A DNA stretch of 42,298 nt from the IMG/VR virus record IMGVR_UViG_3300031950_000002, positions 1 through 42,298 of that record; one strand, given 5' to 3'. Below, in pieces: positions 3,333 to 42,056 of the stretch. The notes beneath the pieces were generated by a model. It worked only from the letters and a program-made list of their open reading frames with translations, was not told the DNA's origin and did not search any database. The stretch comes from a virus. Position 1 is the first letter of the stretch, and each line of letters opens with the position of its first letter. A program made the translations under genes and the position numbers.

Positions 3333-3596
3333 ATGCACGATAATCGTTACATCCGCAATTTAATCAGGATGTACCAAGCTTCAATAGCAGAAAAAGAAAG
3401 TATTGACAGAGCAAAGTTAGCACAGAAACCAAAAAACTGGGAAGATTGTAAAGAATATTTCAAATTATGGGTCACATATAATTTTTTCCTCGATAGAGAA
3501 GTGGGCGAATTCATAAGCTATACTGGAAGGACTAAACCTGCCTTATTATCTTCATATTTACTGGATTTGATGCGTAAAAAGTTAGATGAGACATGA
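3333..3596 (+). CDS. small hypothetical protein, 87 aa
   Basis: No family is recognised. Basic, helical, with several aromatic residues (YFKLWVTYNFFLDREVGEF). It starts 52 bases from the divergent neighbour, with TATTTTTAGTAATG before the start, a weaker version of the local promoter pattern. No membrane segment. It is followed by about 300 bases with no convincing gene. Confidence 0.5.
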   Translation: MHDNRYIRNLIRMYQASIAEKESIDRAKLAQKPKNWEDCKEYFKLWVTYNFFLDREVGEFISYTGRTKPALLSSYLLDLMRKKLDET

Positions 3597-14605: not shown

Positions 14606-14614
14606 GCAGTCCGC
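14484..14614 (+). ncRNA. putative omega RNA scaffold of family-2 TnpB
   Basis: This 131-base segment is nearly identical to 33401-33530, which has no TnpB. Three stems are kept in both: GTAGCCC/GGGCTAT, CCTGC/GCAGG, and the terminal GCTCAA/TTGAGC. It ends with AGTCCGC, taken as the element's right end, so the guide would begin at 14615 with AAGTAATTCGTTATTG, inside the interrupted methylase gene. Location at the tnpB 3' end agrees with known omega RNAs. Confidence 0.6.
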
Positions 14615-15301
14615 AAGTAATTCGTTATTGGGTAATTTTTGCCAGCCAGCGTCTACGAGATTTTTATAGGCTGGTTGCTCGTAACCGAACAAGAGAACTT
14701 TACCCTTAACTGATAGCAAGACGTCTACGAGACTTTTATAGAATTCTGTATCTAAATCGTATGGCGGGTCTATGTAAAACACAGTATCTGGTGTATCCCA
14801 GTACTTGATACATTTTATGGCATCCACGCAGTCTATTTGTACTCTGCTTAGTCTATCACGCCAGTAAACAAAGATTTTTAGTCGCAAAGGCAGATCATTA
14901 GACATGTTATTTAAGAACTTTTCAAATACAGAATTGTATTTTTTAATCTTAATAAGATACTCGCTATGTATAACGAAAAATGCCCAAGTTTTGTTTACAA
15001 CATCAACATTGGGGTCTTTAATTATTCTGACTGCTCGATTGAATTCTTCTTCTGAAAATTGTGTTTTAGCCAATTTGTCTATTATAATTTCATAATTGTC
15101 TATATCTTGTAATACACGATATATGCCGACCATATCTCCGTATAGATCGTTTATTACTTCTACTGGGAATGGGTTAGATAGATACCAAAAAAGAGACATA
15201 CCATTAGCAAAAGGCTCTACATAGATGTATCCTTTAGGCACATGATGTACAAGTTGTTTTCGTAGCTCTTCGTCCCTGTCTATGCATTGGAACATACACA
15301 T
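14588..15301 (-). pseudogene. Dam-type methylase paralogue, truncated at both ends
   Basis: Related to the Dam protein at 11693-12646 over about 200 residues (YVEPFANGMSLFWYLSNPF; WDTPDTVFYIDPPY; AGWQK). The catalytic DPPY is at residues 178-181. The N-terminal cofactor motif PFxWPGGKG is missing, with an in-frame stop just upstream. The pocket loop reads FANG instead of FAGA. The D12 NQGFSG segment is absent. The last residues (ADCSIFYS) are read from the right end of the family-2 TnpB element, which removed roughly 40-50 C-terminal residues. An active enzyme is unlikely. It follows the baseplate gene by 16 bases on the same strand. Confidence 0.8.
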
Positions 15302-18823: not shown

Positions 18824-19345
18824 ATGTGGCTATCCAGAATCAAAACCGCAATCATCGTATTATTGACAACCTTATTACTTTCCTGCAGTGGAGAAAAACG
18901 AGCGGTCAAGAAAATCAGCAAAGCTGTAGAATTAACTAACCCAGAATTCGTGTACAGTTACTTAGTAAATACATATAAGCTGCCCGAAATGCCATACGAT
19001 AGCTCTGAAACACTAACCATAATTCGCGATAGCATAAGATTAGATACTATAATCCGTATAGATACTCTAAAAAAGATAGATACTGTACAAGTTAGAAACG
19101 ACAGAATGCAGATTAAAATAATTAGGCATCACGATACAATGTATGTCAAAGGCGATTGCGTTACAGATACAATAATAAGAGAAAAGATAGTGTACGTAAC
19201 AAAATACACAGAGTCGCGAAATTCTTTTGATAAAAGTAGATTTTATGATGATTTTGTTAGCATAGCATTCATAATATTTGTCGTAATATTTCTTGTAATT
19301 GCTATGGTAAGAGGCATCAAAAGTTATATCAAAAATAACTTATGA
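18824..19345 (+). CDS. unimolecular spanin (lysis lipoprotein)
   Basis: In Gram-negative hosts, spanins fuse inner and outer membranes in the last step of lysis. This 173-residue protein has a lipoprotein signal with lipobox LLSC and lipidated C21. Its periplasmic domain is rich in short DTI-type strands (IRDSIRLDTIIRIDTLKKID; MYVKGDCVTDTII). A C-terminal membrane helix lies at about 145-162 (VSIAFIIFVVIFLVIAMV). One chain with both anchors is the u-spanin design known from phage T1 gp11. The start at 18824 is chosen because the signal peptide begins there and a TATATTTG box lies just upstream. Its stop overlaps the giant gene's start (ATGA). No endolysin or holin is recognised nearby. Confidence 0.75.
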   Translation: MWLSRIKTAIIVLLTTLLLSCSGEKRAVKKISKAVELTNPEFVYSYLVNTYKLPEMPYDSSETLTIIRDSIRLDTIIRIDTLKKIDTVQVRNDRMQIKIIRHHDTMYVKGDCVTDTIIREKIVYVTKYTESRNSFDKSRFYDDFVSIAFIIFVVIFLVIAMVRGIKSYIKNNL

Positions 19346-22300
19346 AGAGAATACTTGAAGCAGTAGTACTACTTATATTACTATCGCTTTTGTTTTTATG
19401 CATAGAAACGCATCACATATTCCTTTTAGCACCTGTCTCATTTGTGTCCACAAGACAGATATTGTTGTTATGGAACAGTTTGAAAAATCGCAAGTACGAT
19501 GGCACTGGTGTAAACGCAAGTAACGAGTTTTCAGATCAGTTTGATGCTAACATAGTAGAACTGGTTGGTAAAGTAAAAGCTCTAGTCAATGATTACATCA
19601 ATAAGAAGAAAGTCGGAGCACCAAAACGTAGTCATTTTGTAAGCCTCAATAATCCAACTAAAAGCCAACTTAGGTCGCTATCTGATGGCAAATACCTGTG
19701 CATTGACTTAAGTAGGTATATCAATTCTGGCAAACTCGTTACGGAACAACTAAATAATGCGTTTTTGGTAATAAAAGGGAAATACTCCAATAGATTCAAG
19801 AGGAGCCATAGTTACAGTCAATTGGCTAATGATTACAAAACCTATGAGTTTTCTATATGGCGTCAAAAGCTGGTAGTTGATACCCACGAAGTTGGTTTTG
19901 GTAGCACGGGCGCTCTTGACGCCTTCCTACATAGTTACGATCTAACGAACCAATATGAGTACTACGCTTTTGATTATTCATCTAGCGAACCCGACCACTA
20001 CTTCAACACAAACGAGCTTAATACGTACGGCCTAAGCGCTAATAGTTATTGGTTTACGGATAACTTGTGCATAGATAGTTACTTAGCTAACGAAAGGACT
20101 AAACATGTCAAATCCTCCGAGGTAGCTAACATACCTTTTATCCCAGACCCTAACAAAAGAGCTTTTGCGTATCATAAACTCATTAAAGAGGGTACTATAG
20201 ATAACATAAGGTTTTACGATTACAATGTCATAACTATTAAGATACTACGTGCAGCTGAGCATATAGAATTCGGGAATGTCAATCAGGATAACTATCGTAG
20301 GGTTTTTATGGATTTACTTTATAGTAGTATGCCGACTAAAACGGAAACTATTTCAGGAAGTGATTATAAAAGATATATGTACCCGTATTTTTACGTTCCT
20401 ATTGTGTTCTATTACGAATCTCTCAATTTAGATGATCACAACAGCGCTTTTAGTTTTCAGCATAATGCTAATGGGTACGGTTATCTTGACCCGTTAGTGA
20501 ATCACAATACCTTCCAAAACATGAAGACATACGGTTATTTTTATCCCATGCGTTATAATTATAATAATTCTACTTGGGTTACTATAAATCCTAACTTAAA
20601 TTCTACATACGATCTATTTGGTTATACATTTTTGATGCCAGGGCCGGAGGGTGGTACGACGTTTAATCACGCTGGTTTTGGAGGTTCTTTCAGTTATGGT
20701 ATGTCATTGAAGTACTTGCCCGATTCAAAATATCGTTATGGAACTTATTTCACACCCTATTATACCTCCGATTACATTGTTTCTGGTTATGCTTCTGCGG
20801 CGATGATGCACTTTTATGCTTCCCAAGATTTTGTAAGATTTACCGAAAGGAGTCGCAAGACATACATGGAAAATAAGCTCAACATAAATGGGAAAGACTT
20901 TGTGAGTCATAAAACTACAACAATCCCAACTGGCCTTATGCCGATGTACCAAGAGTTTTATCCTATTTATCTCATAGATTCGTATTGTTTTGTAGAGAAT
21001 AAGAAGGAAGCTATATTGCTGAAACCTCCTACATTCAGTAGATATACCCTAACTCCCAGACAATATAACTTTCACTTTAGGATACCTTTTGGTATACAGG
21101 AAAACGAACGTAGGGACAATACGGTTTTGAAAGCTTATGCTCAGGCTAATAGCTATTATCACATTAATCCCTCTACTAATTTTTCTGAAATAACACCGAC
21201 TTACGCTTACTTTACAGCACTTTCTGATTATCATACTATGCTTCCTCCGTTCAATAGACAAATGGCTTTTCTATCAATAAGGGCAGTACAAAATATGAAT
21301 AATACAATACGATCTGTAAATATATTATCCAATTCATTTTTGGGGAGGCAACTTATAAGTGGTAGAACGCAAAACGCTATACTTACCAACTTCTGTAATT
21401 GGGTTAACTATCCAGGTACTTATACACCCTTTATGAATGAGAATCAGATACGAGATAATTATTTATTTGCTACTTCGCCTACTAATATTAGAGGGTTGTT
21501 ATGGAGTAATGTATATTTTAGAAAGTTGATAGACCCAGGGGTTGCTCATGAGTTAGGATTTAATGATTTAAATATGACTGTAGATAGTGATAGTGTAGAC
21601 CAGCGTTTACGTCGTGTGATACCTTTTATTCAACCCTTTGGGATTACTAATGTTCCCGTAAGGGTAGGCTCAGGTGAAAATGTTGTAGAAACGCCTAGAA
21701 GACTATGGCGGATGAATGTTTATAGCGGTACCATGAGTGGTACTTACATAGGTTTCAATCCTAATGAAAGTTTTTTCCAAAAGCGAGCAATAGCGTTGGC
21801 TTTAATGAGTTATACATTAGCCGTTCCCGACTATCCTAATTCTTCCCCTAATATACCTTGGTGTTGGCAGTCTTTTGATAGTATGCTTTCTTATGCTCCA
21901 GAATTCGGCGCAGAAGCCAGTAAATACGGGCTTGGGTATGAGTTCCGATTCGCTTACTTCCATAACGACATACATCCAATACCGAACATGCGATTATCGT
22001 TGGGTAATATAGATAGTAACTTATACAGATTACCACTTCTTACTTATAATCATTTATCACCATTGTTTTTTGTCGTATTGACTGACAGAAATGGATATTG
22101 GCAGCACGGCCATCTGGACGATTTTTCGGCTGATACTGCGATGAATACGATAAACACCGAACTTACTTATCTGTATATTGTGCCACCAGATTACATATAT
22201 AATTTTAAACTTCCCGGTCCTATTAGAAGTATCAGTACCCATAGATTTACAAGTGAATCGTTGAGCGATATTTATACAGTCGCGCGTTATGAGTTTTTTG

Positions 22301-25300
22301 CGCCCTACTTACCATTGTATCCATACCGAGATTTAAATACTATATTGCCAAGATTTGATATAAAACCACATCTGAAAGCTTTCAATATTTATCGCGATAT
22401 ACTTCCGACAGACAATATCATTGAAAGTCTACAAGAATCAGAAGGCTATCGCATAAACAATCCTAATAGTACTCAACCCTACGAAATTCTTAGTTTGAGA
22501 CAATACGGCTATTACAATAGTTTTTTAGGTTACTTCTTTGTTGACGTAGGCGGTAGCTTTACAACCATAGAACGTATTGATAAACTATTCAATAGCGGGT
22601 ACGAGACCCGAACAATTAGATACTTAGTAATCCCCAGCCCTGGTAGTTCCGGTAGCTATAGTAGAATATTGGTAGATACTAGCGATCCACTTTTAGGCAC
22701 TGATTTTAACCCGTTTTACATGGACGCAGGCTCTGTGTTCCTAACCTCCGAGGTTAGATACGATGCCATAAGAAATAGGCCAACTGATACGCTAACTAAC
22801 CTGCCAACTGAGATGCAAGGTTACGTTATAACAATGAATGGATTAACTAATCTTATGTTTACTTATAACAATACTTTCTGGAATAATGGTGCTAAACTAT
22901 GGTCTACTTTTGATGATTTTAGAAGCTATTACATAAGCTATTATGACATTTTGAAGTGGCCAGCCCATTCTTCACAGAATGCTATGTATGCTGTGTATGA
23001 CCTTCAAAAAAGATTCTTCGCTTATAGTGTATTACGTACTATAGCCTTGACGAATAGGATATTTTTCCCTAATGTGAGGATTAGACCATTATTAAGTATG
23101 AATGTTAGCTTTGAAGAGGGGAATAATACCGAAAATGATATAGCGAGGCGACACATAGCTTATTATAAAATATATGATGACATAGTAACCAAAAGCAGTT
23201 ACTATCAGACTGATTTGTTAACACCTATGTATATAACTTACAACCCGCTCGGAGCATATGTTATGGTACACGAGAAAGATAGGGATTACATTCGTAGTCT
23301 CATGAACACTAATGTTTTGCCTTCTACGGGTGATCCCAATCCTGTACCTCTTAATGCTAGTTTTAATAGTGAAGGTTTTTACAACGCCATATATGAGAAT
23401 TACGAACTTATAGGGCCATGGAACTTTCATAATCTATTATTCCCGACTTTTTCCACGGGCGAGGTGCGGCAGCCGCAAGCGTGGGCATTCTCGCATCCCA
23501 GAATATGGCCTAGACCAATCATGGCTTATTATTACCCTAGCCGTGTAACTCCTAACCCAGCCTACTACCTGTCAGGCATAATACAATACGAAGAAAAAAC
23601 TTACTCAGGAAGAAGACCTTATCACGTTTTGGATTACAGTAATATCAAAGACTTTGTCGTAGTTATTAGACTTTATAAATTGAATAACGAAATTGTAGCT
23701 GAAAGTTTGAATAATGATTTTGTGGCTATTTATCACAGTAATAAAGTTTACTTGCGCACCAAAACTCAGTTTATAGAACCTATAGTACCTAGAACATTAA
23801 AAGGCACGGGTAGAGTAAGACATAGTCTGACTGACTTAGTAAGTAATGTAAGCAGCCACTTAGGGAAATTTGAAGCTATAGTAGGTGGTAAAGTTTTAGC
23901 TGATTTGGTTAGCGATAAATCTGTCGTCGGAGAAAACTATATTACCAAAGACTATCTACATCCTATTGAAGATGGTGTTAGTGCTGGTAGTGCCTACTAT
24001 ATTGTTAACGAGTCTACTATTATAAATTGCTTTGGTGATATTCATCAGGTAAGTAACAGCGAGTTGGCTTTCTGTGATAGGACAACCTACCCATATGATA
24101 AAGACGAGCAGGACATTGAGATTGTGGTACCCGATGATTACGATTACGAAACCACAACCTTTGGGTGGAGCGAGGCTGTTTACGTGAAGTTTAAAACAGA
24201 AGACGTTTTCAATAAAGCTGCTGGTAAGGATTTTGAAGTCAATAAATATAAAGGCAAGATAAACATCGTCCAAGAGCATCCGATATCTTATGGTATAATA
24301 GACAACGTAAACATATTAAAAAAGCAAAGGGATTATATAACAATGATGCTAGATATAAATTATCTTTCTAATGATAAAGTAGGCAGTGCTAATACTATAA
24401 CGCCTATTAGAAAGGCTGAACATCTTAGTCTAATATCAAATAGATTTGATAATCTATCTGGTTCTAATGTGGTTTATAATTTGCCGAGACCCGCTAGTGG
24501 CGACGAGTTCCCTACATATTATCAACGGCTTATTTTTGAGATAGACTTGCCAGCCCAAACACTTCAATATAGCCAATTAAGTGATGCACTACGATACGGT
24601 AGAAGTGATGCCAATACAAGTCTCGTCAGCACAACAGATGGACTTAGTCTGTATAACGATAAGGATTTGGGGAATGTAATGCTCCATGAGACTGAAAGAT
24701 TTGACGAGCCTATGATAGTATATGATAATCCTTACAATCCTAAAAACGTTATATTCATGTTTATAGATAACTTAATTGCTGAACGAGCTAATGCAGATGT
24801 TCTAAATGGCAATCCACTAGGTGTTATATTGACCGATGAGGAGAGCAATATAGTTCGCGAAAATGTTATCAATGTTGGGCCTAATCCTTTTTCAGGTTTT
24901 TGGCATATGGAGTATGTTGGTTTCATCACAGACTATGCATGGAACAAGTGGTCGGCTGGATTGAATGCTGAACCTAGACAGGGAATACTAAAAAACATGA
25001 ATACGCTATATGAAGGTTTTAGTAAAGTGTATTTTTATAAAGTTGAACTCACAAATTCCGATATATACGGCAGACACCTAATAACTAATAAGTCGTCTGT
25101 AACTTTTGCACAAGATGGTGTTACGTTAGCTGATTATATAAAGCTTCACAAATTCGCAATATCTGCTTTATCACTAAACGCCTTTGCGCCATTCTTAGAC
25201 TTCACTATATATAATAATTACTTCGGTGGTACTCCTAAGACCGTATATTACTCGGATGATTATACACCCAATAACTTATATTTACCATCATCGTATTATA

Positions 25301-28300
25301 GGAACAACTATCCTGGTAGTCTAAATATTACTGAAATACGTAACTCACTTTATAGATTTAGAGTTGAGGATATAGCCATACAAGATCAAAATCAAAAGTT
25401 TCTATTCCCAGCCAAAGATATAGTTACGCGTCTGTTTAGCTTCAAATTACCTGTTGTTACTAAAGTGGTTTTTGTAAAAGATGAAATGCCAAGATATAGG
25501 ATATATCCAACATCTACATTGCATCCTAATAACCATGATAATGTATATGATAAGGGATTTTATAAAGTACTTTATGATTATAGCTTAGGCAATGTAACTA
25601 AGTGGAATAGGTTTTCTGGTACTTCAGCTTTAGGAAGGTTTTACGGAAGTAATCAGTCATACTTTTACTACAACGTGATAACACCCTCCACCAATATACA
25701 AAATACCCTAAGATCCCAATTTAATACCAATAGTACCGGTTATGGTACAGCGGAATATAATTATGATCCATTAGTTACCTCTGTAGGTTTTAGTTGGTCT
25801 AGTGACCCATCTAAAAGGAAGCGGTTAGTTTACGTTGTGCCGCCAAAACCTTTTGATGGTAATTACGATGTCTTTTATCGTATAGGTAATCTTTTCGCTT
25901 GGCCTTATGATTTGATAGGTGCTAATGTGCAGGCCGAGTGTTATTATAAAAACGATACATTTTTTGACTATAATCTGAAAGCTTGGTATTGGCCATACAT
26001 TGGCCGTTATGCTGAAAATCTCATGCACTTAAATGCTCAAAGGGCAGCCTTTTCGCCATTCACAGGATACGGCTACTGGATGCGATACTCTGACAGTCAG
26101 CATATTATATCGCCCATGATGGCGTTTTGGTTCAACCCCAATAATTTTATAAGCCCAGATGAAGTTAGACCTACTTTGACTCAAATTAAATTCAGCGTTA
26201 ACTCCGAGTACGGTTATAGTTATGGTCGTGTAGTGAATCCGTATAAAGATTTTATCGCTTATGAAAGACCCTATGGAGGGGAAATTGCTTATGGCGATAT
26301 TAATAATTCATTAATACTTAATAAGTACACAAGAAAATTCCCTAACAGTACTAACCCTACACAATTATCAGTTGTTAGTGATGTGTATCGTGATAATGTG
26401 TTTCATACGATGACGCTGATTACTTCGGCAGCGATTGAGATACCTCAGAATTTTATCTATAATATGCTTATTAGTAATTACCATCCACCTGTTCCCTTAT
26501 TTGCCGTTCATGGTATTCGTACTGTGTTCTCATTGGATAGTCGTGTTATTTATGACAGTTATAAGGTTCCTGCGCATAGACTAAGAGCAGAAGGTATGTG
26601 GCTGAATAGGACAAACTATGGGCTTTGGGCATCAAGCTGGGCATTATATACTGGTAACATTGTCTGCTTTGATACGCCGCCTTATGGAACACCACTAGGC
26701 GGGTCTTTCTACTTACAACAATACATGTTGTCTAATATACCCTTATACTATTATTATAATGATGGTAATACAAATTATAGATTATTTAATATAGTACATT
26801 TTAACCAAGAGTTAGCGCTCAAACATTTCATACCGCCTGAATTGTATTATCTTGTCTCTTATCCTATTTTCTTAACTAACGAACAGGTTGCGGATACTAA
26901 CTTGGACTTGAATTATCAGTACGAACCCTTTTACATGTCCACAGCCAAGCTAAACTTAGTATATGTAGGCACACAGAAGTTTTATCCGCTTGTATCATAT
27001 GGAATGCCTTATGTGAAACTATTCTATCCCTTCACTGAATTAATGGTGGAATATAATGAGAAGTCAATAAACGAAAAATTTTCACCTGATATTATAAGGT
27101 ATTCTAAAACATTGTATAAGTATCCTCTTGAAAATTTTGGTTTCAAAAACAGAGGTATGCCAATATATAGCATCTACATTGATGGGCAATACGACTTTAA
27201 CCATACCCCGTCAGATGTAAGTGGTAACATGGCTATAAGTCAATCGGCTATGTTATCGTATTTACGTAAAGATGATATTAATTACGATGACCCAGTCTAT
27301 AAACCAAGTGGGAATAGTATTCATGATCCTGATTTTTATAAATTTTTTGCTTACCATGATGCCACTATTGTAAGGGAAGATACTCAGTTCATGTCTTTTT
27401 TGGAGAATAATCGTTCTGCTTTGGCTATGGCTGGAGCTATGAATTTCTTGGCTGGAACTAGCCCAAATCTCAAGACATCAGAACTGGTGCTACGAAAACT
27501 TTACGACTATTACAGAACCGACACAATGGCATACGACATGATGATGTTTTACTTCCATGCTCACGATGAGGAACATACAAGTTACCGCTTGGACAGAATA
27601 GGCGTATTAGGTCATCCCAAAGACCAAAACACAAAAGTTACAACTAACTTCTTGAATACACTTAAGTACTCTCCTAATACAATTAGCGGTATTAATAAAC
27701 TAAACAACCCTCCTAATACCTATGCAACTGATTATTATAATCTAAGTGGTTCCTATGCTAGTACTAAAATGATTTTAGAACGGGATATAATCAAACGGCC
27801 ACTGAGTTCTACTTTTAGGAATCTCTCTAATAACGTACTCACGCAATTAGGCACTGATATTCGCTTACATTTTTATATGACTAGTAGACTTATTTACGAA
27901 GACCTTCTTCTACAATCTTATCACTATCGTTCGTATGTTCCATTACCTAACGAAGGCATTTATATACCTAATACCCATATAGAATTCAATCTTATGCTTA
28001 ACCAAAGCATCTCAGCAAAAGCATTGTTTTTTGTGGGCAATCCTTATTATATTAGGTCTGAATTAGCTAACAAGGCGAATATTTACTTTGTATATAATGA
28101 TTATAAAGTCTTGTCTCAGTTTTACAAGAGGGTCAAACGGTATCGGTATCGTGTTAGGATGCCGATGGTGAAGGGGTTTAAGGTAAGTGTTGGTGTGATG
28201 CCTTTAGGATATAATGCTACGCATGCGTATAGTGTAGGCCCTGCAGGTGCGGTCGGCGCAAGAAACTACTCACAATATACCGATCGTCAGTTCGGTGAGT

Positions 28301-31300
28301 ATCACTTACCAGCACGCGAAACAACTAACTTTTCGTCTATGGGCAGTATGCCATTAAGTAGTAGCCGTGACGTTCAGGTAAATGTAAATAACGTAATGCG
28401 GAACGTCAATATTAGTTTACAACCTACAAAGTATTTTCAATCGCCTAAATCTTTATTCCATACCATAACCAATATTAGACGAGAAGAAAGGGTTATATCC
28501 TGGGCTAGGAATCCGTACTTGATAGATGTACTAACTATATATCCTAAACCACTAATTATAGATCCAGTATCTATATATCAGAAAGAAGCTTTAAGTTGTG
28601 CGTCTTTGTACTTGAGTGATCATCTTGCTTATGCTCCATATGGCGCCTTAGGCACTAATAGTCCAAAAGCAATTTCTTCCACTTATGCCAGTATTGGTAT
28701 CTATCCTGACCGTTATAGCGGATTTATTAATAGTTCTGTATGGCCAAATGCCGTTATAGATGCTGGCATGGTGGGCGATCTGGTTATTACGAGTAATCAG
28801 CTACCATTTTATCTGCCCTATAATGTGGGTAGTGGGACAACCATAAGTTTACCATTGACGTTTTCTTTCCCGGTGGGTGCTGTTGTTGAAGCTAGCGGCT
28901 TGGGCTACGATAAATGGTCGTATCAAGAGTGGATCGTCAGCTACTGGCTTGGCGACACTTTCAGTGGCGCGCAACATTTGCCTGTACCGCGCCGCTGGCT
29001 AAACCACATGGCTATGTACACCAACACTTTGCCGATGCTTACGCAGACTACAGAAAGGCGCTATAATCGAGTTCTTAACAACTATTCATATATCACACCA
29101 ATCATGCAGCTGCATAACCCTCAAACTTTCTTTCTAAGCATGTATAGTAACCCTACTCATACTATGTTATACCTGTCTCATGTTCTAGGCTCATCGGCTT
29201 ACAATAACAAAGTCGTCTACGAAATGAGATTTGATATGGATCTGTTGCATGACTTGCCTGATACTGTAACGTACAACAACTACTGGCCACACATGCAGCA
29301 CACGGAGGTAAACATGAGGGAAGAAAATAAAAACATCAAAAAGTTCTTGATTTCACCACATCATTACTATACTGTCAAGGCTTTACTAGAACAGAAATAT
29401 TACGACCTATATGCATTAAATGCTGAAACACTGATTAACTACAATAAATATAATAATTCAGGTGGTTTATTTCATGGTTTAAACACACTTTCTACGATTC
29501 TCGGTTTACTCTCTGGCACTATTACGAATTTTCAAAGTCTATACTGGACTAAAAGGGATTTGATATTCACAACTACGTATAACATAATTGACCATGCTTA
29601 TAATACAAGTGTGGGCACTTATCCGTTCTATGCTATTGAATCGGTTAGCGGTACGATGCCTTCCTACGGGTACGATTGGCTCGGAGGCTTATACTTTTTA
29701 CTTAACAGCGATAATTATATCATCAATCATAGCGTCCCGTTCGCACAAGTAAATGATGCAAGAGTACAACCCAGAATACTCATACCAGAAGCGACCCATG
29801 TGCCGGTATTCTACACCTTCAATACTAGTCTATCTACACGGCGATTATCGCTATATAGGACTTCTATATTTGCGAGTGATATAGAACCACTGCCTGTGTT
29901 CCACTATAAGGGTGAAAGCGCAATTTTTGATAACACCAGCAGTCATACTAGACTAGAATCAGATATACAGATCGCTAACTCAATATTCACTAATAGTGTT
30001 TATAATATAGAGTTGGATAATGTTATAGTTAGTAATAGAATGCAGACTCCATTTAATGACATGTACAGAAGAGGTTATGCATTTGATTTATTTTACAATA
30101 CATCGCCTAATGCTAGTTTCAGATTTAATTACAATATCCCCGATGTTGATTTATTCTACTTAGAGTTTAATGGTTTTGGGAGGTTTGAGTATAATATGAA
30201 TTATGCTGATTTATTGATTCGTAATCCTGCGCCATGGTCTGTTTTTGTTTACCCAGTTTACCGGCCTATAAATAAGTTTCGCATAGGGGATCAAGATTAT
30301 AAAATGAGCGCACTCAAACTTTTAGGCGATGATGTTAATATGCTATTCCGCTTTCCGAAAGAAATGAGTATCATCATTACAGGTAGTAGTCATGGTGAAG
30401 CTGTAGGTAATTTGTTGTCTTTGAGTGTGCCACCACTATTTGTAGAACATCACGCCATGTGGAGAGGGAATGCCAGTGGCTTTTTTAGCATAGCAGTAGA
30501 TGCATTTAGTCAAATGAGTTACGTAGATGTAGCTAACATGTTAGATGCATCTGGTCAATTAAGGCAAAGTAATAATGTAAAACATAACATATTAGGTGTA
30601 ACATCGTCTGGCTTACTACCCGGAGCATTCAATATGACTTACAATACAAGAGGATACAATATATGGAACTTTACGCATCGGATAGATTACTTCTGGTTCG
30701 CTTGGGTTTTTGGTTATAGTAACGCACGCTCACATGCATCTATGTTCAGAACCCCATACGAGTTTTGGACTATCAACGATCGTGTGACTATCAAGCAACC
30801 TGTTTTGCGAGCCAATACGCTCTCGCACTACATGTACGATCCGCTTTACTTAGACACTGGGCGTGTTTTCATTAGACCTCGTCTTTATCCAGATAGTCAA
30901 CTGAGGCGAAACGTTACTAATCCTGTATCTGTTGAAGCGACAGCTAATATGCCACTTTTTGTGATTGCAGACGCTATATATATGAATGACCCAGCTCGTT
31001 ATTTAGGAGGAGACGTAACAAGAGACTGGATTAACGAGTTATATAGTTTTGACCATTTAGGTGGTAATCCGCCAACGTCTGTGGAGTTTTACTATACGAA
31101 CAGTGGTTTTAGTGTTGGTGATGGTGGTAATTGGGAAGGTGTTGGAATCCCATCTGGATATCGTGCTGGTTCCAATGTGATGACGAGGCCGTATGGCGGA
31201 TACGATCAAGCGATCATAAAGCAGGGTACTGGTGCTTCTGTAGCCAACTTCTACCACCTTGTAGAGGCAGAGCCGTCTATGACCCGCCTTTGGAGCATCC

Positions 31301-31926
31301 AATGTGGTCTGAATACATCGCCTCTTACAAGAACTGGAGACGAACTGACGCACGAGTACGGTGTTCCCGTAAGTAATAACCACATGGTGACGTCACATGG
31401 ACTACACTACGAAGCCACAATAACAGATTACTTCTTAGGTAACATGTTCTTGTATAAAGAGGATGATGCAAAATTATATGAGGGGCATCCGTTACCTCAT
31501 CCTAACTTCATCATCTTTGGCAAGTCTGATAATATTTACAAGTTTCTTGATAATCCTGTGCCGGAAGTCACATATAGTGCCCCGCCAATGTCTTATACGA
31601 TAGAGATAGGTCTTAGACTTTATACGGATTTAAATAATAGCGATGGTACAATAAATAGTAAGCAGTACCAAGATATTGTCATTAGGCCATATCAGAAGCA
31701 CCTGTCATTTTCGACTGATGAATCCGTAGAGTCACCTCATAGATATAGTTATGAACATCTACTGCAGAATAGCTGCTTTGCTCAACATGCATTCCCTGCT
31801 ATGGTGAGGAATAAACATGATATAGACTACCACCACCAGGCGGAATATGTGTTCAGTAATGGTGGTATCTTCGCGAACATCGCTTCAAGTTATATGAAAG
31901 CTGTTGCACAAAATCCGCCTTCTTAA
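19342..31926 (+). CDS. giant protein of unknown function, 4194 aa
   Basis: One uninterrupted frame of 12.6 kb, predicted near 480 kDa. The N-terminus has one or two hydrophobic helices (about residues 6-22, EAVVLLILLSLLFLC, and 27-47), then a basic linker. The rest is strikingly rich in Tyr, Asn, Ser, Pro and Phe, with short strand-like segments and few long helices; no internal repeat, coiled coil or catalytic motif stands out by eye. I looked for the DxDxD metal motif of phage RNA polymerases and did not find it. It is coupled to the spanin by ATGA overlap and followed by the primase after five bases. Candidates are a giant virion protein, adhesin or fibre; none can be shown. Coding character is uniform, so this is a real gene. 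Confidence 0.85.
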   Translation: MKRILEAVVLLILLSLLFLCIETHHIFLLAPVSFVSTRQILLLWNSLKNRKYDGTGVNASNEFSDQFDANIVELVGKVKALVNDYINKKKVGAPKRSHFVSLNNPTKSQLRSLSDGKYLCIDLSRYINSGKLVTEQLNNAFLVIKGKYSNRFKRSHSYSQLANDYKTYEFSIWRQKLVVDTHEVGFGSTGALDAFLHSYDLTNQYEYYAFDYSSSEPDHYFNTNELNTYGLSANSYWFTDNLCIDSYLANERTKHVKSSEVANIPFIPDPNKRAFAYHKLIKEGTIDNIRFYDYNVITIKILRAAEHIEFGNVNQDNYRRVFMDLLYSSMPTKTETISGSDYKRYMYPYFYVPIVFYYESLNLDDHNSAFSFQHNANGYGYLDPLVNHNTFQNMKTYGYFYPMRYNYNNSTWVTINPNLNSTYDLFGYTFLMPGPEGGTTFNHAGFGGSFSYGMSLKYLPDSKYRYGTYFTPYYTSDYIVSGYASAAMMHFYASQDFVRFTERSRKTYMENKLNINGKDFVSHKTTTIPTGLMPMYQEFYPIYLIDSYCFVENKKEAILLKPPTFSRYTLTPRQYNFHFRIPFGIQENERRDNTVLKAYAQANSYYHINPSTNFSEITPTYAYFTALSDYHTMLPPFNRQMAFLSIRAVQNMNNTIRSVNILSNSFLGRQLISGRTQNAILTNFCNWVNYPGTYTPFMNENQIRDNYLFATSPTNIRGLLWSNVYFRKLIDPGVAHELGFNDLNMTVDSDSVDQRLRRVIPFIQPFGITNVPVRVGSGENVVETPRRLWRMNVYSGTMSGTYIGFNPNESFFQKRAIALALMSYTLAVPDYPNSSPNIPWCWQSFDSMLSYAPEFGAEASKYGLGYEFRFAYFHNDIHPIPNMRLSLGNIDSNLYRLPLLTYNHLSPLFFVVLTDRNGYWQHGHLDDFSADTAMNTINTELTYLYIVPPDYIYNFKLPGPIRSISTHRFTSESLSDIYTVARYEFFAPYLPLYPYRDLNTILPRFDIKPHLKAFNIYRDILPTDNIIESLQESEGYRINNPNSTQPYEILSLRQYGYYNSFLGYFFVDVGGSFTTIERIDKLFNSGYETRTIRYLVIPSPGSSGSYSRILVDTSDPLLGTDFNPFYMDAGSVFLTSEVRYDAIRNRPTDTLTNLPTEMQGYVITMNGLTNLMFTYNNTFWNNGAKLWSTFDDFRSYYISYYDILKWPAHSSQNAMYAVYDLQKRFFAYSVLRTIALTNRIFFPNVRIRPLLSMNVSFEEGNNTENDIARRHIAYYKIYDDIVTKSSYYQTDLLTPMYITYNPLGAYVMVHEKDRDYIRSLMNTNVLPSTGDPNPVPLNASFNSEGFYNAIYENYELIGPWNFHNLLFPTFSTGEVRQPQAWAFSHPRIWPRPIMAYYYPSRVTPNPAYYLSGIIQYEEKTYSGRRPYHVLDYSNIKDFVVVIRLYKLNNEIVAESLNNDFVAIYHSNKVYLRTKTQFIEPIVPRTLKGTGRVRHSLTDLVSNVSSHLGKFEAIVGGKVLADLVSDKSVVGENYITKDYLHPIEDGVSAGSAYYIVNESTIINCFGDIHQVSNSELAFCDRTTYPYDKDEQDIEIVVPDDYDYETTTFGWSEAVYVKFKTEDVFNKAAGKDFEVNKYKGKINIVQEHPISYGIIDNVNILKKQRDYITMMLDINYLSNDKVGSANTITPIRKAEHLSLISNRFDNLSGSNVVYNLPRPASGDEFPTYYQRLIFEIDLPAQTLQYSQLSDALRYGRSDANTSLVSTTDGLSLYNDKDLGNVMLHETERFDEPMIVYDNPYNPKNVIFMFIDNLIAERANADVLNGNPLGVILTDEESNIVRENVINVGPNPFSGFWHMEYVGFITDYAWNKWSAGLNAEPRQGILKNMNTLYEGFSKVYFYKVELTNSDIYGRHLITNKSSVTFAQDGVTLADYIKLHKFAISALSLNAFAPFLDFTIYNNYFGGTPKTVYYSDDYTPNNLYLPSSYYRNNYPGSLNITEIRNSLYRFRVEDIAIQDQNQKFLFPAKDIVTRLFSFKLPVVTKVVFVKDEMPRYRIYPTSTLHPNNHDNVYDKGFYKVLYDYSLGNVTKWNRFSGTSALGRFYGSNQSYFYYNVITPSTNIQNTLRSQFNTNSTGYGTAEYNYDPLVTSVGFSWSSDPSKRKRLVYVVPPKPFDGNYDVFYRIGNLFAWPYDLIGANVQAECYYKNDTFFDYNLKAWYWPYIGRYAENLMHLNAQRAAFSPFTGYGYWMRYSDSQHIISPMMAFWFNPNNFISPDEVRPTLTQIKFSVNSEYGYSYGRVVNPYKDFIAYERPYGGEIAYGDINNSLILNKYTRKFPNSTNPTQLSVVSDVYRDNVFHTMTLITSAAIEIPQNFIYNMLISNYHPPVPLFAVHGIRTVFSLDSRVIYDSYKVPAHRLRAEGMWLNRTNYGLWASSWALYTGNIVCFDTPPYGTPLGGSFYLQQYMLSNIPLYYYYNDGNTNYRLFNIVHFNQELALKHFIPPELYYLVSYPIFLTNEQVADTNLDLNYQYEPFYMSTAKLNLVYVGTQKFYPLVSYGMPYVKLFYPFTELMVEYNEKSINEKFSPDIIRYSKTLYKYPLENFGFKNRGMPIYSIYIDGQYDFNHTPSDVSGNMAISQSAMLSYLRKDDINYDDPVYKPSGNSIHDPDFYKFFAYHDATIVREDTQFMSFLENNRSALAMAGAMNFLAGTSPNLKTSELVLRKLYDYYRTDTMAYDMMMFYFHAHDEEHTSYRLDRIGVLGHPKDQNTKVTTNFLNTLKYSPNTISGINKLNNPPNTYATDYYNLSGSYASTKMILERDIIKRPLSSTFRNLSNNVLTQLGTDIRLHFYMTSRLIYEDLLLQSYHYRSYVPLPNEGIYIPNTHIEFNLMLNQSISAKALFFVGNPYYIRSELANKANIYFVYNDYKVLSQFYKRVKRYRYRVRMPMVKGFKVSVGVMPLGYNATHAYSVGPAGAVGARNYSQYTDRQFGEYHLPARETTNFSSMGSMPLSSSRDVQVNVNNVMRNVNISLQPTKYFQSPKSLFHTITNIRREERVISWARNPYLIDVLTIYPKPLIIDPVSIYQKEALSCASLYLSDHLAYAPYGALGTNSPKAISSTYASIGIYPDRYSGFINSSVWPNAVIDAGMVGDLVITSNQLPFYLPYNVGSGTTISLPLTFSFPVGAVVEASGLGYDKWSYQEWIVSYWLGDTFSGAQHLPVPRRWLNHMAMYTNTLPMLTQTTERRYNRVLNNYSYITPIMQLHNPQTFFLSMYSNPTHTMLYLSHVLGSSAYNNKVVYEMRFDMDLLHDLPDTVTYNNYWPHMQHTEVNMREENKNIKKFLISPHHYYTVKALLEQKYYDLYALNAETLINYNKYNNSGGLFHGLNTLSTILGLLSGTITNFQSLYWTKRDLIFTTTYNIIDHAYNTSVGTYPFYAIESVSGTMPSYGYDWLGGLYFLLNSDNYIINHSVPFAQVNDARVQPRILIPEATHVPVFYTFNTSLSTRRLSLYRTSIFASDIEPLPVFHYKGESAIFDNTSSHTRLESDIQIANSIFTNSVYNIELDNVIVSNRMQTPFNDMYRRGYAFDLFYNTSPNASFRFNYNIPDVDLFYLEFNGFGRFEYNMNYADLLIRNPAPWSVFVYPVYRPINKFRIGDQDYKMSALKLLGDDVNMLFRFPKEMSIIITGSSHGEAVGNLLSLSVPPLFVEHHAMWRGNASGFFSIAVDAFSQMSYVDVANMLDASGQLRQSNNVKHNILGVTSSGLLPGAFNMTYNTRGYNIWNFTHRIDYFWFAWVFGYSNARSHASMFRTPYEFWTINDRVTIKQPVLRANTLSHYMYDPLYLDTGRVFIRPRLYPDSQLRRNVTNPVSVEATANMPLFVIADAIYMNDPARYLGGDVTRDWINELYSFDHLGGNPPTSVEFYYTNSGFSVGDGGNWEGVGIPSGYRAGSNVMTRPYGGYDQAIIKQGTGASVANFYHLVEAEPSMTRLWSIQCGLNTSPLTRTGDELTHEYGVPVSNNHMVTSHGLHYEATITDYFLGNMFLYKEDDAKLYEGHPLPHPNFIIFGKSDNIYKFLDNPVPEVTYSAPPMSYTIEIGLRLYTDLNNSDGTINSKQYQDIVIRPYQKHLSFSTDESVESPHRYSYEHLLQNSCFAQHAFPAMVRNKHDIDYHHQAEYVFSNGGIFANIASSYMKAVAQNPPS

Positions 31927-31931
31927 TAGAA

Positions 31932-33308
31932 ATGGATTTTGAGAAGATACGAAATAGTATCTCTATAGTCGATGTTGTACAGTCTTACGGTATTGTTCTT
32001 AAGAAAGTGGGCCGTCAATATATGAGCTTATCACCATTTAAACGCGAAACTAAGCCATCTTTTTTTGTTTTACCTGACAAAAACATATTCAAATGTTTTT
32101 CCTCTGGGCATGGTGGTGATGTTATCAAATTTGTAGCTCTGATGGAACAAGTCTCATACTCAGAAGCTGCTAAAATCTTATGCGATAGGTATAACATCCA
32201 GATTGACGAAGATAATAAGTCTAAAAATAACCCCTTGTACTTCAAGCGGCAAATAGCCAGCTATCTCTCTAAAGCATTACTCAAAAATACAGATTCTACT
32301 TGTTTTCATTATCTTAAAAAGAGATTTTCTTTTTTAGAACAAGAAACTATAACTTCTATTATAAACAAGTTCATAATTGGCATGTGGGATTCTCAGATGT
32401 ATAATGAACTCGTTACTCTTTATGGTGAACAAAGGATTAAACGCATGCGCTTCCCTAAAACAGACAAAAATATTTTCATCGTACTCCCCATTATAGAAAA
32501 CAATAAGGTTATAACATTTATGTTTCGAACACTTAGTGATAATTCAGAATACAAGTATATATACTCTGCAGAGCCTAATAAATCGCTTGTTGATGTCGTT
32601 TATAACTACAACCCTTACGACAGAAATAACGAGATTTATGTAACTGAGGGTATCCTTGACGCTATCGCACTCTATGGTATAGGTATAACAAATGTGGTTT
32701 CTCTGCTAGGATTGAATATAAATGATAAAAAGCTGTCTAAACTGAATAAATACAATATAATAAATCTAGCTTTGGACACTGATCGTTCTGGGTATAGAGC
32801 CTCACTAAAATTAGCACAATACTTCATGCGTCAAAATAAAATCGTATATATACTACTAAATACACCTTATAAAGATGTAGATGAGGCTATAAAAGCAGGA
32901 GTTTACAATAAAGAAACGATAAAACATAAAAAACAGCTAATAACTACACATATATATATTAGAAAGTATAAATCTATTGATTCAGAAGCGCAATATAAGC
33001 AGTGGATTAAGAAAGTAATTAGTGGTATAAAAGATAGTGATATAAGATACTTATATAACAAAAGTATTTACGAAGCCATTAAGCAAAAACCTCTGGATAA
33101 TAAAGAAAGTTTGGGTATAAACAAACTACTAGAAACACTAACTACTCCGTCACTTAGGCTAGCGTTAGCCTATATAGTAGATGCGATAGATGAAAGAGAG
33201 AGGTACAATATGTTACAAAACATGCGAACAGATAAAAAAGAGGACATAATAGATGACAGGCTTATTAATATAATAGTAGATAGTTTATTTTGCAGTCAAT
33301 CCAAATGA
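31932..33308 (+). CDS. dnaG: DnaG-type DNA primase with degenerate zinc finger
   Basis: Synthesises RNA primers for DNA replication. The N-terminal CHC2-like module keeps its frame (LSPFKRETKPSF, then IFKCFSSGHGGDVIKFV). Three of the four zinc ligands are replaced: S34 for Cys, K37 for His, S58 for Cys; only C55 remains. The same loss is known in many Bacteroidota DnaG proteins. The TOPRIM domain is complete, with E239 (VTEGILDA), D282/D284 (LALDTDRSG) and D315/D317 (KDVDEAIKAG). The C-terminal ~130 residues are helical, in the place of the helicase-binding domain; no replicative helicase is recognised here apart from the SNF2 protein. It follows the giant gene with five bases between. Confidence 0.88.
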   Translation: MDFEKIRNSISIVDVVQSYGIVLKKVGRQYMSLSPFKRETKPSFFVLPDKNIFKCFSSGHGGDVIKFVALMEQVSYSEAAKILCDRYNIQIDEDNKSKNNPLYFKRQIASYLSKALLKNTDSTCFHYLKKRFSFLEQETITSIINKFIIGMWDSQMYNELVTLYGEQRIKRMRFPKTDKNIFIVLPIIENNKVITFMFRTLSDNSEYKYIYSAEPNKSLVDVVYNYNPYDRNNEIYVTEGILDAIALYGIGITNVVSLLGLNINDKKLSKLNKYNIINLALDTDRSGYRASLKLAQYFMRQNKIVYILLNTPYKDVDEAIKAGVYNKETIKHKKQLITTHIYIRKYKSIDSEAQYKQWIKKVISGIKDSDIRYLYNKSIYEAIKQKPLDNKESLGINKLLETLTTPSLRLALAYIVDAIDERERYNMLQNMRTDKKEDIIDDRLINIIVDSLFCSQSK

Positions 33309-33342
33309 TTGCATGTTCTGTATTATAGACACTTAAGACACT

Positions 33343-33356
33343 AATTGAATGCAATT
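33343..33356 (+). terminator. weak terminator-like hairpin after the primase
   Basis: AATTG-AATG-CAATT followed by TTG, about 35 bases after the primase stop. The stem is short and AT-rich, so this is only a suggestion. Confidence 0.2.
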
Positions 33357-33400
33357 TTGTATATTTTGATAGTATTTTGCTTAGGTGAGAACCAAGCCTC

Positions 33401-33530
33401 TAGGGTTAGGACGACCCGAAGTGAAGCCTGTGGAGCAGGCTCTGGTGGATGACCGTAGTCCCTACGGGCTACCTAAAAAGCTATCCTGCGACGAAGCAGG
33501 AAGCTCAACAGCAGGAGTTGAGCAGTCCGC
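33401..33530 (+). ncRNA. orphan omega-RNA-like segment (family-2 right end without TnpB)
   Basis: 130 bases closely matching 14484-14614 at the 3' end of the family-2 tnpB gene, but with no tnpB before it. The stems are preserved, with GTAGTCC/GGGCTAC using a wobble in place of a standard pair, CCTGC/GCAGG unchanged, and terminal GCTCAAC/GTTGAGC around a different loop. The end AGTCCGC is identical. The following 33531 onward (TGATTTGACATAGTATG) would be the guide. TATTTTG at about 33373-33379 could act as a promoter box. It lies at the 3' end of a minus-strand gene it has truncated. Confidence 0.6.
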
Positions 33531-33816
33531 TGATTTGACATAGTATGTTTTGTAGAATCGGGTCGCTTTTAGTACAGTCGCCGTTTATTGCTTCATTTAA
33601 TAGAATACCGAACTTGTTTAGTGTATCGTTATCATTAATACTTAGGGCGCTTTTGATCCATATTTGAGCAATGTTTTTTATCGGCCACTTGTAGTATAGG
33701 CTTACGACATCGTCTATGTGGCCGGCAAAAGACATCATATAATATCGTCCTTTACCTTGATCTAGGTAATCAAATAAATTAGTACATAGATTGTACAGCT
33801 CCATAATTTCCTTCAT
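33505..33816 (-). CDS. hypothetical protein, 103 aa, 3' end replaced by element sequence
   Basis: No family is recognised. Helical, with a well-formed N-terminal part (MELYNLCTNLFDYLDQGKGR) and a second part (IWIKSALSINDNDTLNKFG). The last eight codons (GLLNSCC and the stop) are read from the orphan omega-RNA-like segment, so the original gene was longer or differently ended. A promoter-like TAAATTTA at 33822-33829 lies a few bases before the ATG, in the usual spacing. It is divergent from the tail tube gene. It may still be functional if only the tail was lost. Confidence 0.5.
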   Translation of the reverse strand: MKEIMELYNLCTNLFDYLDQGKGRYYMMSFAGHIDDVVSLYYKWPIKNIAQIWIKSALSINDNDTLNKFGILLNEAINGDCTKSDPILQNILCQISGLLNSCC

Positions 33817-39256: not shown

Positions 39257-40135
39257 TCAAACTATCACATGGTCATAAACGAAGAATACAGGAGTTACAA
39301 CTTGTTGGCGACCACACACTATATTATGAATGTTGAGCGAATATTTATATGTTACAAATGCTTGACCTGCAGCATTTAGGCGATAAAACTCTACACCACC
39401 TATTTCTTTTTTATCTAACATACCATTAATAAATAGATGTGTAAATACATTTGAGCTTATCGATCTAACATTTAACCAAAAACGTAAACGATTATATCCA
39501 TATAATGCTTCCACGAAATTATTACTACCCAGTCGCATGCGACCAGCTAAAGGACGATATGGCATATGCAATGAATGAATAATATTAGTTACTAAGTCTA
39601 AGTAGAAGTTGTCGTTGTATTCTTTATCGTAATTTATCCCCATAGAACTGAGGAATTGCATCATGGCCTTCTTGTTCAATTCTACAGGCTTTTCAGAACT
39701 TGACCTTATAAGTTGTTCGTATTGACCAGAAGTGTCTGCTATTGCGGGTTGGGATTTCTTATGTATCTCGTGATATTTATTTATATGTTGCTCTATGTAG
39801 GTAGTTAAGGTCGTATCTATACAAGTCTTTAGTATTCCATATAAAATAAGATATTCTATACTTAATTTAAGTGCAAAAGGTGTGAGCTTGATATTGTTAT
39901 TATTTATCTCTATCAAAGATATATCTAAATACTTTTTTAGTATTTGCTCCGATACCCCACTTGGCCAGTAGTTGTTTATAATAGCATATATATTAACCAG
40001 ATCGTAATAGCTAAAGTTTTTATGTATATCCAAAAAATTCTTTAATTTTTCTTCTGATAATAACTTAGTTTTTATGGGCCTTGATAGATTTATGTTTTTC
40101 TTTTTTATGACTTTGATTGCGAGTTGAGAAATCAT
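39257..40135 (-). CDS. hypothetical protein, 292 aa, helicase-linked
   Basis: No family is recognised. Basic N-terminus (MISQLAIKVIKKKNINLSRP) followed by helical segments reminiscent of winged-helix modules (SGVSEQILKKYLDISLIEIN). The C-terminal part has another possible winged-helix unit (FTHLFINGMLDKKEIGGVEF). It starts one base after the helicase stop, so it is probably translated from the same transcript; a DNA-binding partner of the helicase is a reasonable guess only. Confidence 0.6.
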   Translation of the reverse strand: MISQLAIKVIKKKNINLSRPIKTKLLSEEKLKNFLDIHKNFSYYDLVNIYAIINNYWPSGVSEQILKKYLDISLIEINNNNIKLTPFALKLSIEYLILYGILKTCIDTTLTTYIEQHINKYHEIHKKSQPAIADTSGQYEQLIRSSSEKPVELNKKAMMQFLSSMGINYDKEYNDNFYLDLVTNIIHSLHMPYRPLAGRMRLGSNNFVEALYGYNRLRFWLNVRSISSNVFTHLFINGMLDKKEIGGVEFYRLNAAGQAFVTYKYSLNIHNIVCGRQQVVTPVFFVYDHVIV

Positions 40136-40136
40136 A

Positions 40137-42056
40137 TTATTGTGTATTTATATATTTTAGGTATCGTTCTTTTTGTCGGAGAACGTTGTAAATATACTGG
40201 TCTAGTGTTCCGATGGCGATGATGTAGTGATAGACGCACTTATCGGATTGCTGGGAAATTCGGTGGATTCGGTCTTCGGCTTGTAGCATAGTAGCTGGCA
40301 CCCAGTCTGTTTCAGCAAAGACGATTTCGTCTGTAGCAGTGAGAGTCAGCCCCTCCGAAGCTACAGCTAAGGAAGCGATGATAATGGCTTTCTCAACCTC
40401 TTGGGACTGGAAAGCTGCTACAGCCCTAGCTCGTTCGTTCTTAGAAACACGACCGTCAACAACATAAATCTCATATTCAGACCACATTTCGGACAATTTA
40501 TTTTTAATGTAGTCTATGACTTCGTTATGATGTGCGTATATAATAAACTTATTCTTACCTTCTAACTTATTTTGCACGTAACTGACAACCCATCGAGCTT
40601 TTTCTATTCCTATAAGACGACGGTAAGTAGAGATACGCATAGCTATATCTTTCGGAAGCTTAAGGTTAGCCTCTAACATGCTTCTAATCTTAGCTTCTTC
40701 GCTGATAGCCTCCATAAGGTGCATATCAGATGGATTAGTGATATCTATGTTGACAAAGATACGGCTTTTAGCTGGTAGTTCGGCAAGCACATCCTTTTTT
40801 AATCTTCTGATATATTGCTGCGTACTTTTAAGATAAGTTACAAGATTAGCAGCTTTCTCGGCCTCTATAGTAGTATAATAACGAGCATGATTGCTTGTCC
40901 TGTAATAATATGCTGCCGTCTCACCCTCAAAATTCCTAATGAACTTTACTACATCGGTTATACCATTAGGTAACATGTCAAGCAAACGAAGTATATTATA
41001 CGCTTCTACTGGTCTATTCTTCACAAGTGTTCCAGTAAGACCAAGTATAAATCTGGCCTTACTAGTCAAAGGTATGACATTCTTAACACGCTTAGATTTA
41101 AGACTTTTTAAATTTTGTATCTCATCAAATACAATGATTTCTGGCTCAAGTGATAGAAGTGAATGTAGTTTGTTCTTAGCTGTGAGTGTGGCGTAGTTAA
41201 CGATATTTATTCTTTGAGGTGTAGGACTCTTCAGTGTTACACGCGGAAGTAAAAACCGTTGTGTATCAAACTCAACAATTCTATCATACCATTCTTGTAA
41301 CATCACATCAGGAGCCATAATGATAACAGTCATGCCCTTACGATATGTTGCTAATAAAAATGCGATAGTTTGCACAGTCTTACCTAATCCCTGCTCGTCA
41401 CATAGTAAAAAACCCTTCTTGCCACTACCATAAGTCAGTAGCATACTTCGTATCCCGTCTATCTGATAATCCCGCAGACTAGGTACTAGCCCCTTAAGCA
41501 TCTCTAAATCTTTGTTGACAGACTTAGCAATGTTATCAGGAACAATTATCTCTAAACCTTTATCTGTAGATGTATCTAAGGTAGATGTATCTAAAGCCTG
41601 CAGCTTTTCATTAACAATATCTATATACCTGTTTTTAGCACCTAGTGTATAAGCCAGAATGCGAGCTTCAACACCGAGATATTCAAAATACTGTGATGCA
41701 AAAAGTGCAAACTGCCGTCTATCTCCGCGCCAAGCGTTCTCAGGCATCGGGCTATACTTAAAACCATACTTCTTAAGTGCATCCTTTATATTTATAAAAT
41801 CTTGTGTATTAGCATTATGTACATAGGGTAGCTTAATAGAACATACACTATCTTGTAATTTTACTGTCAAATATAATGGCTTGTTTTGATAGTAGTTAAC
41901 GGCCTTGACGGGTATTTTCGAGAATGCTTGCCGTAGCAGGTCGGCTTTGGAATCGTCCATGCCGCTCATAAGCTCAAATGTGCAGTCTGAGCGCAAGGTA
42001 AAGAGAACTGGCCAAAGCGCGACATGACCTACTAGCTGGTCACCCAAAGTGTACAA
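40137..42056 (-). CDS. SNF2-family DNA helicase/translocase
   Basis: ATP-driven double-stranded DNA translocase, close in plan to SMARCAL1-like phage proteins. Counting from the TTG at 42056, LRDYQIDGI is at ~194-202, Walker A DEQGLGKTVQ around 220-229, DEIQ in place of DEAH at 311-314 and LTGT at 340-343. The C-terminal lobe ends with QAEDRIHRISQQ (motif VI), so all helicase motifs are intact. No nuclease domain is seen. The start is uncertain: the first six or seven codons (MYTLGDQ) come from the right end of the TnpB element, ending near 42036. ATG codons at residues 30 and 33 are alternatives, but residues 12-40 already look like folded protein. A short repeat (DTSTLDTSTD) lies in the linker. 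Confidence 0.85.
   Translation of the reverse strand: MYTLGDQLVGHVALWPVLFTLRSDCTFELMSGMDDSKADLLRQAFSKIPVKAVNYYQNKPLYLTVKLQDSVCSIKLPYVHNANTQDFINIKDALKKYGFKYSPMPENAWRGDRRQFALFASQYFEYLGVEARILAYTLGAKNRYIDIVNEKLQALDTSTLDTSTDKGLEIIVPDNIAKSVNKDLEMLKGLVPSLRDYQIDGIRSMLLTYGSGKKGFLLCDEQGLGKTVQTIAFLLATYRKGMTVIIMAPDVMLQEWYDRIVEFDTQRFLLPRVTLKSPTPQRINIVNYATLTAKNKLHSLLSLEPEIIVFDEIQNLKSLKSKRVKNVIPLTSKARFILGLTGTLVKNRPVEAYNILRLLDMLPNGITDVVKFIRNFEGETAAYYYRTSNHARYYTTIEAEKAANLVTYLKSTQQYIRRLKKDVLAELPAKSRIFVNIDITNPSDMHLMEAISEEAKIRSMLEANLKLPKDIAMRISTYRRLIGIEKARWVVSYVQNKLEGKNKFIIYAHHNEVIDYIKNKLSEMWSEYEIYVVDGRVSKNERARAVAAFQSQEVEKAIIIASLAVASEGLTLTATDEIVFAETDWVPATMLQAEDRIHRISQQSDKCVYHYIIAIGTLDQYIYNVLRQKERYLKYINTQ

Follow-up and report, generated by a model that had tools for sequence, protein, structure and literature searches.

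A probable ends-only IS200/IS605 derivative with a preserved omega-RNA scaffold in a phage genome

We analysed a viral stretch of 42,298 nucleotides (IMG/VR record IMGVR_UViG_3300031950_000002, further referred to as the window) and found that the segment 33401–33530 on its plus strand is, with a probability of about 0.7, the right part of an ends-only (PATE-like) IS200/IS605 derivative of approximately 205 bases, related to the tnpB2 element of the same genome. Deletion of the tnpB coding region would have fused the left end of that element to its omega-RNA scaffold, the latter doubling as the right end, and the ends-only unit would then have moved to several sites in the phage lineage. In the window it would have entered the space separating dnaG from a small, convergent ORF on the minus strand. 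Such movement would presumably have needed TnpA supplied in trans. We count against this reading the lack of TnpA, of a target motif and of a promoter match, the weak homology of the left ends, the decay of copies, and the lack of an intact TnpB2 in the other long records, all described below. Copies of the unit are referred to as orphans.

The segment aligns with positions 14484–14614 (plus strand), where the full tnpB2 element has its scaffold and right end, with 85.5% identity over 131 columns (E = 2.5e-35), and both sequences terminate in AGTCCGC; the original prediction had stated this tnpB-less match and the identical element end, and both are confirmed. The scaffold of the tnpB2 element overlaps the tnpB2 gene and ends at the element end, and the orphan matches it throughout. 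Upstream of the orphan scaffold there is no tnpB; to the left of the insertion lies dnaG (31932–33308, plus strand; Pfam), encoding a DnaG-type primase. On the right, an ORF of 103 amino acids (33505–33816, minus strand), convergent with dnaG, has its 3'-end and stop codon inside the element, and in the empty allele this ORF stops at its own TAA at the insertion point. The element contains no protein gene and is too short for a transposase. The sole open frame in the orphan is the C-terminal frame of tnpB; its start codon is not conserved and it is frame-shifted in the L043 copy, so that a small orphan-encoded protein was ruled out. The Rfam search at the gathering threshold yielded no family.

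The limits 33401–33530 proposed originally are too short. The left end (33326–33400, plus strand) is common to all orphan copies at three sites and travels with the scaffold (33401–33530, plus strand, including the right end), and the left limit was therefore revised to approximately 33326. The whole element, 33326–33530 on the plus strand, was delimited by empty sites in the related contigs L024/L025 and L026 and by copies elsewhere in the same contigs; its left edge is uncertain within 33318–33326, with 33326 as the best estimate. The left end carries the palindrome AATTG-AATG-CAATT (33343–33356), which has the form AAATTG-AAAG-CAATTT in L043 and is weak in L022 and L024, and the right-end hairpin H5 is clear. 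Comparison with the empty alleles revealed no target-site duplication at the window site. The similarity between the orphan left ends and the sequence preceding the tnpB start is weak, with P from 0.007 (best pair) to 0.09 for most pairs. To the left of the copies of this family, no clear target motif shared by the three sites compared was found, and three sites are too few to fix the motif of TnpB2.

The comparison set consisted of related IMG/VR contigs, L018 and L026 belonging to one contig. Four records (the window, L022, L023 and G007, the record behind L038) have the element at the window site, and in three the site is empty, namely L024 and L025, with the sequences GATTGCATGTTTTAT/TGATTTGGAATAG, and L026, with GATTACATGTTTTTT/TGATTTGACATAG. 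The orphan unit occupies a second site in L024/L025 and a third one in L026, and copies at all three sites have the same fusion of the left end to the scaffold, AACCAA(G/A)CCT-TA(G/T)GGTTAGG. One junction at three sites argues for a single deletion followed by movement rather than for three separate deletions. Orphan copies are present in seven separate records, and an assembly artefact was ruled out on this basis.

The same right flank is preceded by a full tnpB element in L003 (941–1071) and by an orphan in L024/L025 (around L024 2168–2374), these phages being 98.5–99.1% identical over 937 bases. Between the scaffolds of L024 and L003 there are three differing columns, and two of these form the orphan-type pair of hairpin 1; L024 is thus a mosaic of orphan-type and L003-type sequence, and the copies seem to recombine with each other. 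Approximately 70 bases of the right flank in L024/L025 recur, diverged, on the other side of the element. Elsewhere in the records G002, G005, G006 and G007, decaying or partial copies were found. The 60.6-kb record G005, which is the contig of L025, contains decaying TnpB2 scaffolds at 620–752, 3479–3591, 24482–24590 and 29621–29701 and looks like a graveyard of old insertions.

The predicted fold of the orphan scaffold comprises five hairpins on the plus strand, H1 (33403–33417), H2 (33425–33441), H3 (33455–33472), H4 (33484–33501) and H5 (33503–33523). The stems are kept, as had been proposed, but the hairpins number five, not three. All 31 of the 31 pairs are formed in the window orphan and in L024, 30 of 31 in L022 and 28 of 31 in L043, compared with only 26 of 31 in the tnpB2 copy of the window, where hairpin 2 is broken. 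The original prediction described base changes that preserve pairing by wobble or fall in the loop; one change, in hairpin 1, is truly compensatory, with GGGC..GCCC in the tnpB-bearing copies and GGGT..ACCC in the orphans. Covariation is modest: both sides have changed in three pairs only, and shuffles often reach two of the five measures. For this reason we do not claim strong covariation as evidence, and base the structure on homology and on the pairs that have been kept. The covariance model built from the window family, a check suggested together with the original prediction, detects scaffolds in Thermus phages with E from 4e-6 to 3e-7, and decaying copies were seen in relatives. Decay without stem conservation in related phages had been named as a sign against function; the outcome is mixed, since orthologues at the same site keep the stems, whereas copies at other sites decay.

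These data have to be weighed against a rival explanation to which we give somewhat less than an even chance, that is, an inert remnant: an ends-only copy without any RNA function whose fold is intact merely through youth or through refreshment by recombination. The many decaying copies and the mosaic scaffold of L024 agree with it, as does the substitution-matched test of stem preservation, which is marginal for the window orphan (uncorrected P = 0.047) and without significance for the other copies. On the other hand, all 31 pairs are kept, including the compensatory change that required two events. The divergence between the window and L022 bears on both sides. It amounts to 4.6% in the scaffold, 12% in the left end and 52% at fourfold sites of the two flanking genes, and so low a value in the scaffold relative to its neighbours speaks against a remnant. 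However, the two records do not differ at all in the 76 bases that follow the element on its right, coding positions included, while the rest of the ORF containing them differs by 17%. Such a tract is what recent recombination would leave, and recombination over this stretch suffices to explain the low divergence of the scaffold. Hence conservation of the scaffold is not separable from recent recombination, and we do not claim selection on the orphan, given that the conserved tract takes in the 76 identical flanking bases.

The presumed guide, TGATTTGACATAGTATG (33531–33547, plus strand), is flanking DNA outside the element; the prediction of an orphan with its own guide was borne out. Over 16 bases the guide is identical to the empty site of L026, whereas the empty site of L024/L025 differs from it at two positions. 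The 16-base guide matches 30 stretches in viral contigs, a number that we judge to be close to what chance would give in a collection of such size, and only the element's own locus shows extended similarity. Thus, in the viral contigs, the guide appears to have one meaningful match, its own empty site in sister phages, and not a new target; this is the outcome of the guide search in rival phages that had been advised. A domesticated stand-alone guide RNA directed at a gene of the host or of a rival phage, as envisaged in the original prediction, would account for guide and scaffold being identical or nearly so at one site in four records. We nevertheless hold it to be very improbable, since only the own locus recurs with extended similarity among the viral matches and the flank is identical over 76 bases, far longer than a guide. 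Instead of an RNA heading to a new function, the observations describe a mobile, two-ended element present at several sites and often decaying.

A guide equal to the element's own empty site reads as an instruction to cut phages lacking the element at this position, which is the role in element retention or gene drive already known for TnpB. The ends-only derivative may exercise this ordinary role with TnpB2 acting in trans: the unit would be transcribed, its RNA bound by TnpB2, and the complex would cut the element-free allele of co-infecting sister phages, favouring the element bearers. We regard this chain of events as possible, though somewhat doubtful. A stronger version, homing by a trans-acting gene drive, in which the empty allele is cut and repaired from the filled one with little transposition, is unlikely in our opinion. 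It would fit the presence of the element in four records and its absence from three at one and the same site, and the lack of differences in the guide-side flank (0 of 76 bases, against 17% in the rest of the ORF) is as expected from co-conversion; recombination centred on the guide side would also be expected from repair after TnpB cleavage, and the tract may be a hint of it. Ordinary recombination, however, yields an identical pattern, three different insertion sites are left unexplained, and the 12% difference between the left ends of the window and L022 means that the whole element was not recently passed on as one piece. A TnpB gene drive has been demonstrated for plasmids, where an IS200/IS605 TnpB guided by the flank cuts copies that lack the element, to the advantage of those that carry it (PMC11870625). 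The plasmid element carries its own tnpB, whereas the window guide RNA would have to act in trans.

A possible partner is encoded in the orphan's own genome. The intact gene tnpB2 (13388–14605, plus strand; 405 amino acids) has OrfB_IS605 and Cas12f1-like TNB domains, and alignment to solved TnpB-type chains shows that the product retains the GIDLG, VEDIN and DRDIN motifs and the zinc ribbon; the catalytic motifs thus look intact, and the original prediction had proposed this TnpB as the partner in trans. None of the other long records, possibly fragments, yielded an intact TnpB2. Neither Y1 TnpA (PF01797) nor a serine recombinase was found in the seven records searched, all of them possibly fragments. 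Paralogous D12-class adenine methyltransferase genes flank tnpB2 (11693–12646 and 14588–15301, both on the minus strand), and the frame of the second one ends inside the tnpB2 element. A TnpB 79% identical to TnpB2 is encoded at 2501–3281 of L048, a 3.8-kb contig assigned to a Candidatus Parcubacteria MAG (RFKD01000043.1), which may be a misbinned phage contig.

The window also encodes a second, divergent TnpB-like family (9–1625, plus strand; 538 amino acids, weak TNB domain) with derivatives at 11376–10957, 42296–42046 and 13187–13061, all on the minus strand. One derivative fuses residues 3–76 to 474–537, and two others retain 3' parts only. The pattern of gene loss is repeated in an unrelated TnpB-like family of the same phage. 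An ORF of 4194 residues (19342–31926, plus strand) takes up 30% of the window and has no Pfam match.

Transcription signals were considered in the window as well. The motif TAnnTTT[A/G] is located 3–6 bases before the start codon of six of the 23 window genes (at 3333, 5576, 13388 and 33880 on the plus strand and at 33816 and 39234 on the minus strand), compared with approximately 0.8 expected. This suggests leaderless mRNAs and a −7 promoter box resembling that of Bacteroidota. It does not occur in 33319–33400, nor was a sigma-70-like site found there on the plus strand, so that the −7-like box reported upstream of the scaffold in the original prediction is weak. The missing promoter match in the left end is in line with an inert remnant.

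The best parallel to the window element is provided by cultured Thermus phages. The orphan had no match when the phage collection was searched for similar DNA, and these relatives were reached by a TnpB protein search: the nearest annotated phage TnpB (59%) is encoded in Thermus phage YS40_Isch within an IS200/IS605 element with tnpA. Unannotated ends-only copies with an intact omega scaffold are located in Thermus phage TMA (AP011617, 84542–84724) and in YS40_Isch (MK257744, about 39964–40196), and an element fragment is present at 89656–89681 of the latter. In the TMA unit, a stretch of approximately 94 bases covering left flank and left end (92.6%) is fused to 105 bases of the right end (97.1%). 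Phage phiYS40 holds the empty counterpart of the TMA site, TTTTAA followed by TCAGAATGTTTTAGCAATAA, and shares with TMA, without any difference, the 20 bases that follow the element on its right. TTTTAAC precedes all three Thermus copies and the empty site has TTTTAAT; a single base thus differs or has been lost. In total, YS40_Isch has the full element and an orphan, TMA has an orphan only, and in phiYS40 the TMA site is empty.

The TMA and YS40_Isch copies, like the window element, join a left end to an omega scaffold without tnpA or tnpB. Unlike it, the Thermus copies have a clear left TTTTAAC and a left-end hairpin, a full element with tnpA exists, and TMA has a near-consensus promoter-like sequence, TTGAAA-16-TATAAT (11 of 12 matches), directly before the scaffold; in the full Thermus element this sequence lies before tnpA. 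Gene-less copies that keep the scaffold thus recur in phages. The independent origin of a scaffold-retaining form in Thermus phages, in one case behind such a promoter, is a further point against the inert remnant.

Ends-only IS605 elements have been described before from bacteria and archaea, and the window element belongs among them. Altae-Tran 2021 and Meers 2023 may treat trans-acting or gene-less forms. In Halanaerobium hydrogeniformans, a PATE-like element of approximately 271 bases lacks tnpA and has kept its right end completely, its left end in part and of tnpB the last 58 bases; its movement is thought to be due to a transposase in trans (PMC7290912). It is a single bacterial copy whose description makes no reference to an omega RNA, whereas the present element occupies several phage sites and its fold has been examined. 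PATEs of Haloquadratum walsbyi are short and transposase-free, produce no target duplication, and have near-terminal palindromes as in IS605-type elements; they reside in archaeal chromosomes, and many of them are not simple deletion products (PMC3119063). Compared to them, the left palindrome of the window element is short and not kept in every copy. The phage-encoded TnpB-like repressors TldR are RNA-guided transcription factors acting on host flagellin (PMC13418256). Both TldR and the present system are TnpB-derived RNA-guided systems carried by phages, but TnpB2 keeps the nuclease motifs whose loss would be expected of a TldR-like partner, and the orphan guide matches its own insertion site. 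To the known elements our analysis apparently adds an omega scaffold that is complete and has kept its pairing; it occurs in phages, at several sites and beside a TnpB that looks usable, although an earlier description may exist.

Should the RNA be produced and bound by the enzyme, one TnpB per phage could handle several guides from dispersed gene-less elements, and a transposon could live on with the borrowed nuclease of a relative. YS40_Isch, TMA and phiYS40 are cultured on laboratory strains of Thermus, which makes the question of guides acting in trans directly testable. More generally, the TnpBs of phages might be served in trans by gene-less guides, with one TnpB per phage and several scattered copies, each directing the nuclease to the empty form of its own site in rival sister phages; we offer this as a speculation that is rather improbable at present. 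If it is true, transposon remnants would constitute multi-locus RNA-guided marker exclusion for phages, and the event that deletes the genes could bring an element promoter directly in front of the guide RNA, a possibility suggested by the TMA copy.
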